From positions 6,538,709 to 6,602,708 of the forward strand of contig CP043547.1 of assembly GCA_009664345.1 (NCBI GenBank): DNA of 64,000 nucleotides, in the 5' to 3' direction. Numbering within the stretch: position 1 is the stretch's first letter; every line of letters starts with the position of its first letter. Below are positions 38,669 to 47,505 of the stretch, in pieces. The translations under genes were made by a program, and so were the position numbers. Origin of the DNA: Planctomycetales bacterium 10988. GTDB taxonomy: Bacteria > Planctomycetota > Planctomycetia > Pirellulales > Pb10988. The notes beneath the pieces were generated by a model. The model did no database searches and was not told where the DNA came from. It saw only the letters and a list, made by a program, of their open reading frames with translations.

Positions 38669-39793
38669 TTACGCTACGTGGACTAATTTTTCCGGGTCTT
38701 TCGTCGGTGGACCTGCTTGCTCTTCCAAAGCGGAACGCACCATGATTAGTTCCCCAATATTTTCGGCGGAGATCAACCCAATTAACTGGTCCTCTTCCAT
38801 GACAGGGAAGGTTTGGCAGCGGGAGGAACGCATCCTCGAAAGGATTTTCTCCAATGGTTGCGTCGGGGAAATCCGGTCGCAATCTTCCATCATGACGACT
38901 TCAACCAGGGAGTCCTTGCCATGGTCTTTCAATCCTCTAATCAAATCACTCCGCTGCAGGAGTCCCATCCATTGTCCATCTTGCAAAACAGGAAAGTCGT
39001 GTTGATCCCCAGCTAAAAGTAAGTCAACGGCCTCGTTCAGTGTTTGCTGCGGCGATAATGTTTCGTAATCGGTCAGCATCGCATCCCGAACGGTTAGCCC
39101 TTGCACCATATGTTTAACATGCACCGATTGCCGTTCACTTTCCGCACCTAAAAAGACAAACAAAGCGATCAGTACCAAGAGTGGATTGAAGAATAGGCCG
39201 GCAATCCCGAAGAGAATCGCCATCGCTTCTCCAGTCCAAGCGGCGATGTTCGTTGCCTTGACATAATCCATCTTCATCGCCAGCCATGCCCGAAAGACTC
39301 GGCCTCCATCCATCGGAAAGGCCGGGAGGAGATTAAAGACAACTAGGAACAGATTCAGCCACATTAGAATTAGAAGGGATGAACTGCCGATGAGTTGTCT
39401 AGGGACTAGTTGTGTAAAGCCGGACATAATCCCAATGGCACATGCCAGCACAATCGCGATGACGACATTCACCGCAGGACCAGCGATGGCGACCATCATT
39501 TCTTCTTTGGGTTTTTCAGGAATCCGGGCCAACTGAGCAACCCCACCGATCGGCAACAGCGTGATGTCCCTGGTAGGGATTCCATAATGTCGTGCCATGA
39601 GGGCATGCCCCAATTCATGCAACACCACACAGGCGAAAATGGCTAATACCATGCCGACGCCATAGAGTGCCGCAGCCACGCTTTCACCGGCTATGAGGTA
39701 GCTGACCGCTACCCACAATAAGATAATGAGAAAAGTCCAATGGACCTTAATATCAATTCCAGCGATCCGACCTAATCTCCACGACCAACTCAT
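38669..39793 (-). CDS. Site-2-type zinc protease with CBS pair
   Basis: This 374-residue intramembrane metalloprotease (peptidase M50) has zinc motif HELGH (59-63) and the third ligand in FPMDGGRVFRAW (Asp162), with about six membrane segments. Two CBS domains fill the C-terminal 150 residues (VRDAMLTDYETLSPQQTL, EVVMMEDCDRISPTQPL). CBS pairs bind adenosine nucleotides and would gate the protease. Its substrate is not known; membrane anti-sigma factors are classic targets. It heads a probable unit with the downstream stress-type gene. Confidence 0.93.
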   Translation of the reverse strand: MSWSWRLGRIAGIDIKVHWTFLIILLWVAVSYLIAGESVAAALYGVGMVLAIFACVVLHELGHALMARHYGIPTRDITLLPIGGVAQLARIPEKPKEEMMVAIAGPAVNVVIAIVLACAIGIMSGFTQLVPRQLIGSSSLLILMWLNLFLVVFNLLPAFPMDGGRVFRAWLAMKMDYVKATNIAAWTGEAMAILFGIAGLFFNPLLVLIALFVFLGAESERQSVHVKHMVQGLTVRDAMLTDYETLSPQQTLNEAVDLLLAGDQHDFPVLQDGQWMGLLQRSDLIRGLKDHGKDSLVEVVMMEDCDRISPTQPLEKILSRMRSSRCQTFPVMEEDQLIGLISAENIGELIMVRSALEEQAGPPTKDPEKLVHVA

Positions 39794-39879: not shown

Positions 39880-40917
39880 CTATGGATTCGACGCTTGAAA
39901 AGAAGACGAATCTTTTGAGCGATTGGGCTCTTCCGCGTTCTTCTCTGCGGAAAGACTTTGAAGAAAGGAAGACCCCCGGTTCCGGTCTCGCTCTTTTCCA
40001 GCTCGGCGAGCCACATTTCTTTGTAATCGAGCAACAATCAAGCTGAAATTCTCGGCGGATTCTTTCTTTTCAGCAGCCTGGTGGAAGAGTCGGCAACATT
40101 CCTCCGCCGAGTTTCCTTGACGCAAGATCGCGGCAATCTCTGATTCGGAGAAAGAACCAAGCAACCCTTCAGTACAACAGAGAATAGTATCTCCGGAGAG
40201 TTGTCGGTGATGCTTCACTTCCAATTGGACGGGCTTTCCCTCTCCCCCTAACACATTGTAGAGGGCGTTCTTCCAGCGGGAAGTCTTAGCCTGATCTGGG
40301 CTGAGAATCCCTTCTTCTACCATCTTTTGGGCAACCGTATGATCCTTCGTCAGTTGGCGAATGCGAAGATGACGATGAACATAACAGCGAGAATCCCCTG
40401 CATGAACGACATTCATATAGGGCCATTCCAGATGCACCAAAGTGACGACAGCGGATAAGGGCCGATTAAGTCCTTCTCGATCCGTCTCCTCTCGAAGTGC
40501 CAAATCGCAAGATTCCAGCACGCGACTCAGCCGACTCGAAGCTGAACCCACTTGCATCTCAGAGGCAGCATTCCCCGCCTGCTTCATCATGAACGAAGAG
40601 TCCTGCTGAGAAAAATAGTTCTTTAACTGAGAAAGAATCGTTTCCATAATGCGTTGACTACAGCGCTTGGACCATTCATCCTCTTCGGTATTTCCGATCA
40701 CTACGAGAAATTGCCCCTGAAATTGTTCTCGGTGGCGATATTCCTTTTCCAACATCTCCGGCAGATTTGTTTCAAATCGTAATTGCGGAGTCGAAAAGTC
40801 GAGCAGCAGATAATGACACGATCTGATGGACTCTTCGGACTGTTGGAAGCTGGTTCCACAGCAGTCGACGATTTCTCGGTAGCTTCCTTGGCTTGAAGTA
40901 ATCATGGCTTCACTCAA
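39880..40917 (-). CDS. PP2C-like protein with altered metal ligands
   Basis: This 345-residue protein has the PP2C fold in its middle and end: VTLVHLEWPYMNVVHAGDSRCYVHR, LTKDHTVAQKMVEEGILSP, LCCTEGLLGSFSESEI, AENFSLIVARL. Several metal-binding positions are changed. The early DGxGG block is replaced by VVIGNTEEDEW, the late S-D-G block reads TEGL, and the closing D-N reads ENF. Ser/Thr phosphatase activity is therefore doubtful, and a pseudophosphatase or a diverged enzyme is likely. There is no membrane segment. The C-terminus is basic and Ser-rich. Confidence 0.7.
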   Translation of the reverse strand: MSEAMITSSQGSYREIVDCCGTSFQQSEESIRSCHYLLLDFSTPQLRFETNLPEMLEKEYRHREQFQGQFLVVIGNTEEDEWSKRCSQRIMETILSQLKNYFSQQDSSFMMKQAGNAASEMQVGSASSRLSRVLESCDLALREETDREGLNRPLSAVVTLVHLEWPYMNVVHAGDSRCYVHRHLRIRQLTKDHTVAQKMVEEGILSPDQAKTSRWKNALYNVLGGEGKPVQLEVKHHRQLSGDTILCCTEGLLGSFSESEIAAILRQGNSAEECCRLFHQAAEKKESAENFSLIVARLQRNVARRAGKERDRNRGSSFLQSLSAEKNAEEPNRSKDSSSFQASNP

Positions 40918-41541: not shown

Positions 41542-44500
41542 TTAGGAAGATTCCGATTCGGTGATCGGTTGCTGGAATCGTTCCTTGGCAATCCGGCGAG
41601 CTTCCCCCAAGGCTATCTTTCCGCTACCTAACATGGGAATTTCTTCAATCAGTAAGAAACTATCGGAACTAGGAATCCAGAGATTGGGAATGTCGTCTTT
41701 CTTCAACGCGGCTCGGATGTCATTTGGAGTGATCTCGGTAGGAAGATGAAGCACGACGATCCGTTCGCCACGTTTCTCGTCGGGAACGGCGGTCACGACT
41801 GCCAGGATATCCTCGCCACTTTCGAGAATTGCGTTGATTTTCTCTTCTAAAACCACATGAGGGACCATTTCCCCACCGATTTTTGAGAACCGGCTCTGTC
41901 GTCCGGTAATCTTAATGAAGCCATCATCATCGATTTGAGCCAAGTCCCCGGTGATATACCAACTTCCGTCGTACATCTTCTCCGCAGTTAACTCGGGGGC
42001 ATTCAAATACCCTTTCATGACACTCGGGCCGCTGATGAGCATCATGCCGGATTCTTTGGATTTCAGGGGTTCGAAAGTCTCTGGATGAACGATTTTAATC
42101 GCTAGGTTATGGAATGGCCGCCCGACGGTTCCTTCTTTATTCGAGATCTGAACATAACCATTTTTCGAGCGAATGTCGGGAAGATTCACGGCCACCAGTG
42201 GGGAAAGTTCGGTCGCTCCATATCCTTCATAAGGTCGCTTGCCGAATTTCTCTTCAAAGGCATCCGCCAGGTCTTCATGTAATTTTTCCGCACCGACAAT
42301 GACCAAGCTAAGTGACTCAAATTGTTCTGCGGTACAGCGACGAAGGTAATTCCGCAAGAACGTCGGCGTTGCCAAGAGGATCGTTGGTTTATATTTCTCG
42401 GCAAGTTTCCCGATCAGTTTGGCATCCAGCGGAGAGAAATGGTACAGCCCACGAATATCCAAAGTAAGGACCGACCACATCGTTGCGGTATATCCAAACG
42501 AATGAAAAAACGGCAGAATCCCCAAGACAAGGTCATCCGAGGTGAGTTCCACCATCTGGTCAAAGCCCTGGATGTTTGCCCCTATATTATGATAAGTCAG
42601 GACAACCCCTTTGGGATTTCCGGTCGATCCCGAAGTGAAAATGATCGTCAAAGGATCGTCATGATCAATCTTATGCAAACCGAGGAGGCGTTCGGTTAAA
42701 AAAGCAGGCGAAAGATAGGCCAAACTAAAACCAACGAATTTATCGAAGAAAGTAACTTTATCCTTGAGGTCTTCGAGATAGACCAACTCCCCATCGAGGT
42801 CCATGCCGAGCTTTTCGACGAACCTTCGACTCGTGAGAATGTGCTTGAGATCGGCTTTGTCCGAACAATAATTCAGGACTTGGGCGGAAGCGGAATAGTT
42901 TAAGTTGACGGAAACTTTTCGCATGATCGAAAGGGCGGTATTAACCGTGACCGCGCCCAACGATGGCGGCAGCAAGACGCCGACGCGTTCTTCCTCTTTG
43001 CTCAGAATCTCTCGTTCCAGCAAACGTTTGAGGATGATCACACGCATCAGGAAAGTACCGCCGGTTGCCTTCTGCCCGGTGGAATCGACGATCTTCTCGC
43101 GGAAGAGGAACTTGCGAAACTTCCGAATGAATAATCGAGGTAACACGATTGCACGTTTCTTACGGGTCTGCACGGCCTGGACCCCCAATGTCTGGACTGC
43201 CTGTCGAACTTGGTAAATGTCTTCCGGATCATCGACCGGAGGACCAAAAAAGATCGAAACTGGGTACGGCCACTGCTTGGGCCATTTCCAGAAAAACTTT
43301 CCACCACGATAGCTGAAGATACTCCCCCACAGCTCGTCAAGATAGACCGGGATCAAGGGAGCATTGGTATTGTGAATGATCCTCGTAAATCCTGGTCGAA
43401 ATCCTTGCAGTTGTCCAGTCCGAGTGATGGCTCCTTCGGCAAAAATACAAACTAATTCTCCCTCTTCAATCGCTTTGCGGGCTTTTCGTAAGGTTCCCAG
43501 AATCGCCTTGGGGCCTTTAGCGGGGTTGATCGGAATGACCCCCAATAGTTTACAGAGCCATTTCACCGGTCGCGAGGAGATATAATCGGCATGGGCAATC
43601 ATGCGAATCGGTCGCGACGAGGAAAGAATCAACATCACCCCATCGATCCAAGAAACATGATTGGCGACTAATAGAGCGCCACCGGTTTCGGGAATGTTTT
43701 CCCGTCCCGTTACTTTCACTTGATAGATCGTATGCGCCGCACACCAAGCCAAAAATCGAGCGGTTGCAAACGGGAGAATCACGACGATATAGATCAACAC
43801 GGGAATCGTCACCAAACCCGCCAGTAGGAAGATCGTCCCCGGCTCCAGCTGGAGGTAGCCTTTGAGGAAATAGAACAAACCCGCGATGATCAACATTCCC
43901 CCAAAAGTGAGAAAATTGACCGCGGCCAGGATCGATCCTCGATTCTTTGCCGGGCTGCGATGCTGAAGAAACGCTGCAATCGGGACTTCATAAAGACCGG
44001 CACTCGTTCCCAGGAGAAACAAGCTAAGACAAGCAAGATAAAAGGTTTGCGTTGCACTCGTATATAATAGGATAGAACTGATGACAATTCCGGCGGTTCC
44101 CAGCGGAGTCAATCCTAACTCAATCCGGCCAGCGGAGAGCCAACCAGCTAAGATGCTGCCAAAGCCGGTTCCCAAACCCAGCACGATCAATAGCGGATAA
44201 TTTTCTTGCGGCTCAAGACCCAAGACATCGGTTCCATAAAGATCGACATTCAGTTGAGAGAGCGAAGCCATCGACCAAAAGAAAGCCGACCCAAACGCCG
44301 CCCGCCGGAGCCCGACATTGCTTCCCAGCATTTTCAGGTCTTTATAAGTATCTTTTGGAAACGACCAAGGGAATTCTCGCTCGGGGTTGGCGACCGGCAA
44401 AGGACGGATGAATAGAGAACCGATCCAACCGCAAGTCGCTAGGGAAATCAGAACCACCCCCGGAAGCCATTCAAGGGCATCTTCTCGATAGCCTTTGTAA

Positions 44501-45018
44501 ACCAAAAACCCGCAAGCGGTCCCGGCCAAAATCGCGATGACGGTGGCCAAACCCATGATTCCGTTGGCACTGGAAATCCGATCGACTCGCAACATTTCCG
44601 GCAGTCCGCCAAGTTTCGCCGGACCATAAAGGGCACTTTGCGTTCCCATCAAAATGAGCGAGAAACAAAGGAGATAAAGGCTCCCTGCCCAAATGGAGAA
44701 AACGGCCAAAATCATGATGGCAATTTCAGCAGCTTTACACCCGACAATCACATTGCGTTTACTAAAGCGATCCGAGAGATAAGCCGCTGGGGCCGCGAAA
44801 ACCAAATAGGGAAGGACAAGCCCGGCAAGGCCCATCGAAAGAGCAAAGGCCTCGTTCTCTTTGCCGACCATCTCTTTGCCCAGCAAAACGACGAGCCACC
44901 TCAGAACATTATCGTTCATCGCCCCGAGGAATTGAGCGACCATCAGCCCAACGTAGCTATAGGACCAGAGGCCGTATTGACCTGTTTCCAGAGGTTGCTT
45001 CGTATCAGCAGCAGGCAC
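41542..45018 (-). CDS. LplT-PlsC-Aas fusion: transporter, acyltransferase and acyl-ACP synthetase
   Basis: This protein of about 1,158 residues has three modules. The N-terminal major-facilitator transporter (about 1-400) resembles lysophospholipid flippase LplT. The PlsC acyltransferase has NHVSWIDGVML and FAEGAITRTG. The C-terminal AMP-binding ligase has TIIFTSGSTGNPKGVVLTYHN, GYGATELSP and TGRQSRFSKIGGEMV. Together these import lysophospholipid, activate a fatty acid and reacylate, the job of LplT plus Aas. The frame is open to TTG 45120, but GTG 45018 has AGAGGAG eight bases before it. A start at ATG 45057 or 45093 is possible. Confidence 0.9.
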   Translation of the reverse strand: MPAADTKQPLETGQYGLWSYSYVGLMVAQFLGAMNDNVLRWLVVLLGKEMVGKENEAFALSMGLAGLVLPYLVFAAPAAYLSDRFSKRNVIVGCKAAEIAIMILAVFSIWAGSLYLLCFSLILMGTQSALYGPAKLGGLPEMLRVDRISSANGIMGLATVIAILAGTACGFLVYKGYREDALEWLPGVVLISLATCGWIGSLFIRPLPVANPEREFPWSFPKDTYKDLKMLGSNVGLRRAAFGSAFFWSMASLSQLNVDLYGTDVLGLEPQENYPLLIVLGLGTGFGSILAGWLSAGRIELGLTPLGTAGIVISSILLYTSATQTFYLACLSLFLLGTSAGLYEVPIAAFLQHRSPAKNRGSILAAVNFLTFGGMLIIAGLFYFLKGYLQLEPGTIFLLAGLVTIPVLIYIVVILPFATARFLAWCAAHTIYQVKVTGRENIPETGGALLVANHVSWIDGVMLILSSSRPIRMIAHADYISSRPVKWLCKLLGVIPINPAKGPKAILGTLRKARKAIEEGELVCIFAEGAITRTGQLQGFRPGFTRIIHNTNAPLIPVYLDELWGSIFSYRGGKFFWKWPKQWPYPVSIFFGPPVDDPEDIYQVRQAVQTLGVQAVQTRKKRAIVLPRLFIRKFRKFLFREKIVDSTGQKATGGTFLMRVIILKRLLEREILSKEEERVGVLLPPSLGAVTVNTALSIMRKVSVNLNYSASAQVLNYCSDKADLKHILTSRRFVEKLGMDLDGELVYLEDLKDKVTFFDKFVGFSLAYLSPAFLTERLLGLHKIDHDDPLTIIFTSGSTGNPKGVVLTYHNIGANIQGFDQMVELTSDDLVLGILPFFHSFGYTATMWSVLTLDIRGLYHFSPLDAKLIGKLAEKYKPTILLATPTFLRNYLRRCTAEQFESLSLVIVGAEKLHEDLADAFEEKFGKRPYEGYGATELSPLVAVNLPDIRSKNGYVQISNKEGTVGRPFHNLAIKIVHPETFEPLKSKESGMMLISGPSVMKGYLNAPELTAEKMYDGSWYITGDLAQIDDDGFIKITGRQSRFSKIGGEMVPHVVLEEKINAILESGEDILAVVTAVPDEKRGERIVVLHLPTEITPNDIRAALKKDDIPNLWIPSSDSFLLIEEIPMLGSGKIALGEARRIAKERFQQPITESESS

Positions 45019-45684
45019 GAATGGGGCTCCTCTAGGATGGGAAAGCCGAAGGTGCATGAGGAAGAGACAGCACCACCAAGGCACTCCTCTCATTCGACGA
45101 AATGAAGTTATATCTACCAAATCTCACAGCAGAGACCCAAGCGGCATTCAGACAGGAAAGCTGTTTCACAAACGTCTCCCGCAAAGAAGTAAGATCGTTA
45201 CCGGGATTGCGATTCATCACTCACGGCATTTTTTTGGATTCTAAAAAATCCCGCGTAGTCCGAAAGTTCTCGATGCGAAATTCGTGTGAAGGTATCACGG
45301 TTCAAGACAAGGGGGAGAGGGAACGAAGCTTGTCTGCCAAGATGGCCGAGTCGGAAACGAAATCCCATCTTTGCTCGGGGGTAACAACGATCCAAACAAG
45401 ATGGAAGATCACAAAAAGTGAGCGAGACACGATTCTCCGCGCATACTAATGAGAAGCCTACCGAAGATCGACCGTTTCGGCTAGACCCTGAGCCTCTTCA
45501 AACCCAAGCGTCTTCCTGGCAGAGGTCTATCGTACTGGATTTTCTACAGGAGGTGAAGACATGCCGGTTTTAAGGAGTGTAAGGTGTCGATAAAAAGAAA
45601 AGCGAGAAGACCCTGAGAAGGACCTCCTCGCGCTGGCAACAAGCGTTTACTGAGTGTGCTGAGAATGTTCTATTGAACGGAAGA
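45019..45684. other. Intergenic region between the fusion gene and the acidic HTH gene
   Basis: About 660 bases, mostly leader and promoter DNA of the fusion gene plus the 3' region of the acidic HTH gene. A plus-strand frame at 45102-45449 has no ribosome site or recognisable protein. The only clear element is the terminator at 45591-45631. Confidence 0.5.
45591..45631 (-). terminator. Intrinsic terminator of the acidic HTH gene
   Basis: Read on the minus strand, GCGAGGAGGTCC and GGGTCTTCTCGC form a twelve-pair stem (some G-T pairs) with a six-base loop, followed by TTTTCTTTTT. It lies about 50 bases after the stop codon at 45685. Confidence 0.85.
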
Positions 45685-47505
45685 CTAGATACGGAACATC
45701 TCCAAAAGACTTCCGGTGAAGCTTGGTCCGCCATCGATCCCAGCGAAGTAGCGGAGCAAGTCCCCCATGAAGAGACCGCAACCAATCAGGAGAAAGAAGC
45801 AAATAAAGAGGAGTGTAACATCAACCCCTTTATAGCTTTGCGTCGGTCCATATTGATACTGCCCTACAGTAATGGGGCCGCGGCTCGGCATCGTTCCGGC
45901 GGCCGCTCCGCTGGACGAAGGGGCAAAACTTGTCGGCATCCCCCCATATTCCGCTTCGGAAAAACTTGGAGCAGGGGGTGCTTCTTCAAAGGCTGGTTCC
46001 GGAGCGGTCGCAAAGGGATCGTCGTCATCATCGGGGCCTAAGGCCGGAGGTAGCGATTCGTCGAATCCACCATCTTCCGCCGGCAGGGCGGGGCCGAAGT
46101 CGTCTTCACCGTCATCCAAGGCAATGACTTCCGAACCAGAATCGTCCTCTTCTTCCTCATCCAGGGAAGAGAGCATGAAATCGCCTTCGACTCCACTTCC
46201 CAAGCTATTGCCTACGCCGGAGCCACTTAGGTCATCTTCCGCTTCAAGTGAAATTCCGGAATCCGCCAAGCCTGCCAGGGCAACGCCACTCTCGCTGGCT
46301 CCAATCCCAATCCCACTTTGGCTAGGTTGCAGGGTAATGTCGCTTCCGCCTCCCGAGCCACCGAGAACGAATTCATCATCCTCATCTTCGCCCAGGGTGA
46401 TATCTTCGCTGGAAGGAGAGGCAGGAAGATCGTTGTCCGCTTCATCCAGCCCTTTCAAGGTGATTTCGCTTCCCGGTTCGGAAGAAGGTTCGTCATCGGC
46501 TAGACTAATGCCACTGATTCCGTCATCCATTCCGATATCACTGACGGATTCTTCATCGAGTGAAAGCTCTAAATCATCAGCAAGTCCAAGGTGATCCGGT
46601 TCCGGGGTATCTTTTTTCAGTCCCAATCCGCGATCGAGCTGGACTCCGGTTTCTTCATCGGTAAAGATACTGACATCCGAGGGGCCAGCTACCGAGTCCA
46701 TCAAATCCAACTCGTATTCATCGCCGGAATCATCTGCTTGTGCGCTGGGCAAATCGGCGGTGAGATCATCTTCGTCTTCAATCCCTTCGAGCGAGAGGTC
46801 CAAACCTAACGCATCGTCGTCCCCACCACTACCCTCTTCAGTGAGTTCCATCGCTTTATCATACGCTTCGTCGAACTCATCAGTGGTTTCATCTTTGGAG
46901 GAGGTTTTGGCCAGGCCTTTAAGATCGAAGTCGGTCAGCGAGATCGTCATATCCGATTCACCATGATCCGATTGATTGAGGTCCCCAAAACCACCGGTTT
47001 CAGAGGACTCTTGCATTTCAAGATCATCGAAGTTAATCGAGAGTTCTCGGTCTTCATACGATTCGATGCGATCAATGTTGAGCGAATCGTCCTCTTCTTC
47101 GCTCATTTCCGGCAGGTCGAATTCGGCGATTTCTTCATCGAGCAATCCGGCAGCCGAGAGGGTTTCTTCCGCACCCAAGACATTACTATTGCCGATACCG
47201 CTGCCATGGAGGTCCAAATCGACTTCTCCAGCACCGATTTGACTATCTTCCATCACGCTGGGACCAAAGGAATCGTCGAGGTTCAAACTGGAACCTTCCA
47301 TCATGGATTCTAAATCAACGACATCATCCGTCGAGGGTTGTCCCTTGATTCGTGCTTCCAGCTTATCGACCGAGGCTGCGTCGAACTGGGGATTGTCGCC
47401 TTCTTCCACCGGCGAAATCATGCCATCGCTAATGGCTTTTCGCAGGCGTGCCTCCGAAATTCCCAACCGTTTCGCAGATTCTGATAGGCTTAAATAATCA
47501 GCCAT
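45685..47505 (-). CDS. Acidic helix-turn-helix protein with C-terminal membrane segment
   Basis: This 606-residue protein has an N-terminal excisionase/MerR-like helix-turn-helix (YLSLSESAKRLGISEARLRKAI, DGMISPVEEGDNPQFDAASVDKL, residues 3-50). A very long Asp/Glu/Ser/Gly-rich low-complexity region (about 55-500) carries recurring short patterns such as SGIGIG, DSGISLE and ISLADDE. It ends with one membrane segment (VTLLFICFFLLIGCGLFMG) and a short tail. It could be a DNA-binding protein tethered to the membrane. A non-DNA-binding role of the HTH cannot be excluded. It has its own terminator. Its function is unknown. Confidence 0.8.
   Translation of the reverse strand: MADYLSLSESAKRLGISEARLRKAISDGMISPVEEGDNPQFDAASVDKLEARIKGQPSTDDVVDLESMMEGSSLNLDDSFGPSVMEDSQIGAGEVDLDLHGSGIGNSNVLGAEETLSAAGLLDEEIAEFDLPEMSEEEDDSLNIDRIESYEDRELSINFDDLEMQESSETGGFGDLNQSDHGESDMTISLTDFDLKGLAKTSSKDETTDEFDEAYDKAMELTEEGSGGDDDALGLDLSLEGIEDEDDLTADLPSAQADDSGDEYELDLMDSVAGPSDVSIFTDEETGVQLDRGLGLKKDTPEPDHLGLADDLELSLDEESVSDIGMDDGISGISLADDEPSSEPGSEITLKGLDEADNDLPASPSSEDITLGEDEDDEFVLGGSGGGSDITLQPSQSGIGIGASESGVALAGLADSGISLEAEDDLSGSGVGNSLGSGVEGDFMLSSLDEEEEDDSGSEVIALDDGEDDFGPALPAEDGGFDESLPPALGPDDDDDPFATAPEPAFEEAPPAPSFSEAEYGGMPTSFAPSSSGAAAGTMPSRGPITVGQYQYGPTQSYKGVDVTLLFICFFLLIGCGLFMGDLLRYFAGIDGGPSFTGSLLEMFRI

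Follow-up and report, generated by a model that had tools for sequence, protein, structure and literature searches.

A planctomycete family of membrane-anchored helix-turn-helix proteins with a long acidic arm and a conserved upstream partner gene

The gene under study is located in a stretch of 64,000 nucleotides of Planctomycetales bacterium 10988 (contig CP043547.1), hereafter the window, and encodes a protein of 606 aa with a helix-turn-helix (HTH) head, a long acidic arm and a C-terminal membrane segment. Its ATG is preceded by GGAGAG, and its features are collected in Table 1 together with those of its surroundings. The hydropathy maximum, 2.55, falls at residue 563 and a tail of 25 residues follows the membrane segment; the anatomy of the preliminary description, consisting of HTH, acidic region, recurring units and C-terminal membrane segment, is confirmed. 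No match was obtained in the Rfam search, nor in the NCBIfam search with the 606-aa protein. Further ORFs on the minus strand were annotated by eye: 41542-45120 resembles an MFS-type transporter fused to an acyltransferase and an AMP-dependent ligase, and 39880-40917 a PP2C-like phosphatase, for which Pfam returns only SpoIIE at E 0.0022, under the cut-off. The ORF at 38669-39793, 6 kb from the anchored HTH gene, is site-2-protease-like with CBS-like domains, and is a possible candidate for a protease releasing the anchored HTH protein.

Table 1. Features of the anchored HTH gene and of its surroundings (window positions)
Feature	Position	Strand	Basis or remark
HTH–acidic arm–membrane anchor gene	45685..47505	minus	ORF, ATG start, 606 aa
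Winged HTH head, residues 1-58	47332..47505	minus	family profile, AlphaFold2
Recognition helix, residues 18-27 (EARLRKAISD)	47425..47454	minus	basic here; acidic in most relatives
Wing, residues 34-42 (EEGDNPQFD)	47380..47406	minus	acidic in window copy
Acidic, probably disordered arm, residues about 59-561	45823..47331	minus	composition; relative's model
Densest S-D/G-I-x-L cluster, residues 387-420	46246..46347	minus	motif count
Conserved SGS(E/Q)VIALD motif, residues 456-464	46114..46140	minus	sequence comparison
Membrane segment, about residues 563-581	45763..45819	minus	hydropathy; helix in relative's model
C-terminal tail, residues 582-606, predicted outside cytoplasm	45688..45762	minus	topology inferred
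Upstream partner gene UPS, 115 aa	47955..48302	minus	ORF and family survey
Terminator-like hairpin 3' of HTH gene	45602..45631	minus	hairpin search

The identity of the head was established with a profile of the family: against an HTH profile built from 77 relatives, with the window excluded, residues 1-58 score 27.4 bits, whereas the best of 10,000 shuffles reaches 9.9. In Pfam the window protein shows only weak matches to HTH_17 (PF12728; 11.7 bits, E 0.33, below the cut-off of 27) and to Rv2175c_wHTH (E 0.27). Among the relatives, every one of the 58 HTH rows has an HTH_17 match with E no higher than 0.1, the first row having 27.1 bits and several family genes lying above the cut-off, and 57/58 match TIGR01764 at E up to 0.01; weak profile matches were also found for the chaperone modulators DafA (E 0.032) and CbpM (E 0.72), Trans_reg_C was absent among the best 25 of 30 families for the HTH rows, and a large HTH profile compared with PDB sequences retrieved mostly designed repeats and chance matches. 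The AlphaFold2 model of the window HTH is a winged helix (mean pLDDT 86.6), whose closest solved fold is CbpM (Foldseek E 2e-3; VIA Z 8.0, rmsd 2.6, 58 aligned), followed by MerR-family regulators, RacA, BldC, phage Xis and terminase heads. The ranking does not separate CbpM from the DNA-binding MerR proteins and, since rows within Z 1 are tied, sets the fold class and not the partner. Profile score, modelled winged helix and MerR-type PDB neighbours agree with the excisionase/MerR-like HTH first read from the letters.

The arm is composed of 27.7% D+E and only 2.4% K+R over about 500 residues, and the net acid fraction of the 606-aa protein is 0.22 in comparison to 0.096 for the highest of the 32 other ORFs of the window; the acidity proposed at the outset is real, and the length, which had been put at 450 residues, has to be revised upward. 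The recurring SGI-type units are likewise borne out, as the window protein contains 7 units of the form S[DG][IVLM]x[LIV] against 0.61 in shuffles (p about 0.0005), and 25 relatives drawn at random from the 77 contain 170 against 13.4. The D+E content of the arm ranges from 17.6 to 33.3% across 77/77 relatives, and the head and the short motifs of the family are better conserved than mere charge. In the model of a typical relative (L041) the head (5-54) is confident and the arm (60-385) is mostly under pLDDT 50, with no coiled coil or long helix; beyond the arm come a helix in the membrane (391-419) and a short one outside it (430-439).

The distribution of the family was evaluated with profiles, the whole-protein search in 39 genomes having given matches in only 4, own genome included, because the acidic arm swamps the alignment. 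The full-length profile detects the family in 128/138 genomes of the class sample and 192/392 of the phylum sample, and the profile of the C-terminal part in 190/297 genomes of the class; the plasmid search gave no match. A set of 80 family loci belongs nearly entirely to Planctomycetota MAGs, many of which are labelled Pirellulaceae, Pirellulales, Pirellula or Blastopirellula. The HTH is present in all 29 relatives chosen without regard to it (set L011-L040, which overlaps in source genomes with set L041-L120) and in 20/20 further loci chosen by family-profile match, 12 of them outside the class; in the latter the membrane segment is recognized by hydropathy in 19/20, the exception (L188) running into masked bases. 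Conservation of HTH, acidic arm and membrane anchor in homologues, for which a survey had been proposed, is thus found. The tail after the membrane core measures 25-34 residues in 77 relatives, and some distant members apparently have two membrane segments; two of these (L182, L183) end, by eye, in a Lys-rich tail, an arrangement that fits a cytoplasmic N terminus. No description of an HTH–acidic arm–anchor family was found in the titles and abstract starts of the papers listed, and the available portions of PMC10632474 and PMC12283558 do not name it.

Outside the window the genome encodes one further member, a protein of 1296 aa (L006:7902-11792, minus strand) whose N-terminus is of HTH_17 type (E 0.0052) and which also has the long acidic arm and the membrane segment; its arm contains recurring blocks around IFGxxL and [TS][VI][VM]G. 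The HTH of this protein scores 17.3 bits with the family profile, the highest value among 10,000 shuffles being 10.3, and does not match at E 0.01 the profile from which it had been excluded. In the tree of the C-terminal part the window copy and the 1296-aa protein are sisters with support 98/94, so the duplication looks lineage-specific, and the branch of the window copy is long (1.62). Within this planctomycete family the window protein is thus a divergent member.

A pairing missed in the preliminary description is that of the HTH gene with UPS, an ORF directly upstream on the same strand, whose product has a hydrophobic, signal-like stretch at its N-terminus as well as a small conserved domain, and has neither a Pfam or NCBIfam family over cut-off nor a PDB match. 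In the window the two genes are separated by 449 bp, a gap longer than in most relatives; in the L011-L040 set UPS is upstream in 29/29 relatives with gaps of 7-279 bp, and in the 80-locus set it precedes the family gene in 49/77 loci and is undetected in 28/77, many of which are labelled Pirellula (in 71/77 loci the upstream sequence exceeds 1 kb). In the class sample UPS is detected in 68/138 genomes, including 32/32 of the order, and is undetected in 70/138, among them the f22, f23 and f25 genomes listed without a match; 67/68 copies are on the same strand and upstream of the family match, a count limited to the matches listed and in which three HTH places (G044, G055, G120) derive from the C-terminal search, and the remaining genome (G130) has no family match to compare. 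In the phylum sample UPS occurs in 105/392 genomes, and 92 genomes outside the class have it; there UPS and the HTH gene are adjacent in 29 of the 34 genomes with both, among the matches listed, this count drawing on 88 genomes with an HTH place among those matches. The UPS profile was built from matches in 51 loci and the window, so that detections in those genomes are partly by construction, which does not apply to adjacency. The failures to detect it in 70/138 class genomes and 28/77 loci indicate that UPS is not indispensable. Tandem pairs of UPS are seen in some genomes outside the class (G436:C60, G312:C271, G343:C108, G317:C10). In the window genome UPS is single-copy and located beside the window copy, not beside the 1296-aa sister. 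The hairpin that follows the HTH gene fits a transcription unit ending there, although terminator-like hairpins are not above shuffle counts in the region. Other neighbours were considered as clues to function and discarded: a ResB/CcsA-type (CcsBA) gene lies downstream of the family gene in 34/77 loci and one for an OmpA-type lipoprotein in 19/77, TolQ occurs in 19/77, and none of the three is beside the window gene. Also downstream in 34/77 loci, and likewise not next to the window gene, is a gene for a protein of about 400 aa that has no name.

The DNA-reading capacity of the head was considered by comparing the heads of the 77 relatives with a control set of 30 ordinary HTH_17 domains taken from 12 genomes of planctomycetes. 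The net charge of the relatives is on average -2.1 (-5 to +1) versus +3.9 (-3 to +8) in the controls, with a Mann-Whitney p of 1.8e-14 that is only a guide because the rows are related. Within the recognition helix, an acidic residue occupies column 19 in 61/77 relatives versus 2/30 controls, of which 17/30 are basic at this position, and column 25 is acidic in 67/77 versus 6/30. Column 15 is acidic in 72/77 relatives versus 1/30 controls and is the weakest sign, since genuine excisionase-type domains can also have an acidic residue there. The basic DNA-reading surface of HTH_17 is therefore not found in the relatives, which have D/E where ordinary domains carry R/K; their wing keeps RDGxxWKFK, with basic residues usable for contacts to the DNA backbone. 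The 77 relatives were selected by the pattern RDGxxW[KR][FY], with R or K in first position (3/80 loci, L044, L070 and L104, were dropped), and for this reason the conservation of the wing columns in this set is circular, the helix columns being unaffected; in the L011-L040 set, chosen by the C-terminal profile regardless of the HTH, [RK]DGxxW is present in 29/29. A covariation test in 49 relatives, whose rows are not independent, gave no support for head-to-tail pairing between the charges of helix and wing (rho -0.27, p 0.057). The charge pattern of the family argues against base reading by typical heads, which, with an acidic HTH, should repel DNA even without the arm. The window copy is atypical, as its helix is basic, its wing acidic and the [RK]DGxxW motif lost, and the net charge of its head is -3 over 47 residues and -2 over 58; with helix and wing charges reversed, its own ligand may differ, and the basic recognition helix, despite the acidic wing, may allow DNA binding by this copy alone.

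The anatomy, conservation, gene pairing and charge pattern of the module are best explained, in a reading that we hold tentatively and at somewhat less than even chances, by a two-gene planctomycete membrane module in which a putative protein-docking head is carried on a disordered acidic arm and accompanied by an exported partner. UPS would be the small exported protein, and the HTH protein would be anchored at its C-terminus with the MerR/excisionase-type winged helix in the cytoplasm, at the end of the arm. In most family members the head would most likely dock onto a cytoplasmic protein, or onto its own kind, rather than read bases, because their DNA-reading helix has turned acidic whereas RDGxxWKFK is kept in the wing. 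CbpM, the closest solved fold, is a published precedent for such a protein-binding MerR-like domain (PMC4063869); the tied fold ranking, the basic residues of the wing, the basic helix of the window copy and the loci in which UPS is undetected count against the module. The arm would give reach and hold the head off nucleic acid, the repeated S-D/G-I-x-L motifs may be further docking sites, and the short outer tail could couple to the exported partner. Head, acidic arm and anchor are the constant elements, the exported partner being present in about half of the class sample. A more elaborate form of this docking module, which we regard as rather unlikely, would be a planctomycete-specific envelope scaffold. 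Its head, with an acidic face on the helix and a basic one on the wing, would dock or self-assemble at the end of an acidic brush of many motifs anchored in the inner membrane and coupled to the exported partner; in the lineage of the window, one duplicate would have reversed both faces.

The main rival is a membrane transcription regulator of the ToxR/ToxS type, in which the exported partner would modulate the anchored protein, the winged helix would bind promoters and the arm would give reach; it is a possible explanation with roughly one chance in four. As judged from the sequence, an HTH joined to a membrane segment corresponds to the definition of transmembrane transcription regulators given in the accessible part of PMC10269533, that is, a DNA-binding-type domain with at least one membrane segment; the conserved partner gene, the HTH_17 matches of 58/58 rows at E up to 0.1 and the basic recognition helix of the window copy are also in its favor. 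However, the heads and recognition helices of the family are acidic, the outer tail has only 25-34 residues in 77 relatives, and the acidic arm would repel DNA. The last difficulty and the negative charge of head and recognition helix also concern a RocS-like tether of chromosome to membrane, the link first suggested for this protein, which is unsupported given the D/E of the relatives' HTH in place of the R/K of ordinary HTH_17. An N-terminal MerR-type winged helix combined with a C-terminal anchor as in RocS, the basic residues retained in the wing of relatives and RacA among the structural neighbours are compatible with such a tether; because the heads are acidic and the L041 model shows no coiled coil, it is less likely than the ToxR/ToxS-like regulator and is considered improbable.

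A sensor of salt or calcium built on the acidic arm, also put forward in the preliminary description, could account for the strong acidity in 77/77 relatives, but the motifs DxDxDG and GGxGxD are absent from the window protein and occur in only 2 and 14 of 77 relatives respectively, and conservation is stronger in the head and the short motifs than in charge as such, which leaves this reading unsupported and very improbable. The window copy could instead be a decaying or repurposed duplicate devoid of the family function, as its sister in the genome (98/94), its long branch and the loss of the wing motif of 29/29 relatives would allow; this is a doubtful explanation, held slightly less probable than the chromosome tether, as the copy retains an open frame of 606 codons, the C-terminal motifs and the membrane segment and, in contrast to its sister, keeps the partner gene. 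The first interpretation consequently stands in part: the conserved combination of HTH, arm and anchor is supported, the chromosome link and ion sensing are not.

Many conserved planctomycete genes are unnamed, and the essential proteins of Planctopirus limnophila include 108 phylum-specific ones with no known function, as reported in the accessible part of PMC10632474. The family described here is a widespread membrane protein of Planctomycetota, usually found at one locus only and accompanied by a conserved partner gene, and is for these reasons directly testable in a laboratory planctomycete. It is a new variety of HTH protein tethered to the membrane, common throughout one phylum, to which a docking function may be ascribed, and its excisionase-type HTH with a sign-changed DNA-reading face invites caution in calling DNA binding from the fold alone.

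In comparison to known systems, the family shares with HTH_17/excisionase-type domains (PF12728, TIGR01764) the fold and the profile match of the relatives' heads, the window protein alone being far below the Pfam cut-off, and differs from them in the acidic helix, the net negative domain, the long arm and the membrane anchor. ToxR/ToxS, as described, pairs a winged HTH anchored in the membrane with a partner, exported or periplasmic, whose gene is adjacent, and both features are found here; in ToxR the HTH is an OmpR-type winged HTH and the ToxS gene is downstream, whereas in the window family the HTH is of the HTH_17/MerR type, the head is acidic, the outer tail is short and the partner gene is upstream. 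RodZ is described as a membrane protein with an HTH in its cytoplasmic portion, which contacts MreB; its HTH is involved in the contact and belongs to another class, and its periplasmic domain is folded. Unlike the window protein RodZ has no long acidic arm, and no folded periplasmic domain is found in the family, whose tail has 25-34 residues in 77 relatives. RocS has an N-terminal MerR-type winged helix and C-terminal membrane association, according to the accessible text of PMC11500499; the MerR-type winged helix is found here as well, but RocS binds DNA and contains both a coiled coil and an amphipathic helix, whereas here the acidic arm is probably disordered, with no coiled coil in the model of L041, and the anchor is a membrane-spanning segment. 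CbpM, which belongs with DafA to the chaperone modulators, is small, soluble and provided with a coiled coil, unlike the window protein, and the likeness observed is that of the fold, with weak profile matches besides: the MerR-like winged helix, which in CbpM is devoid of DNA-binding residues and, as described in the available part of PMC4063869, is used to bind protein with the help of an acidic patch.
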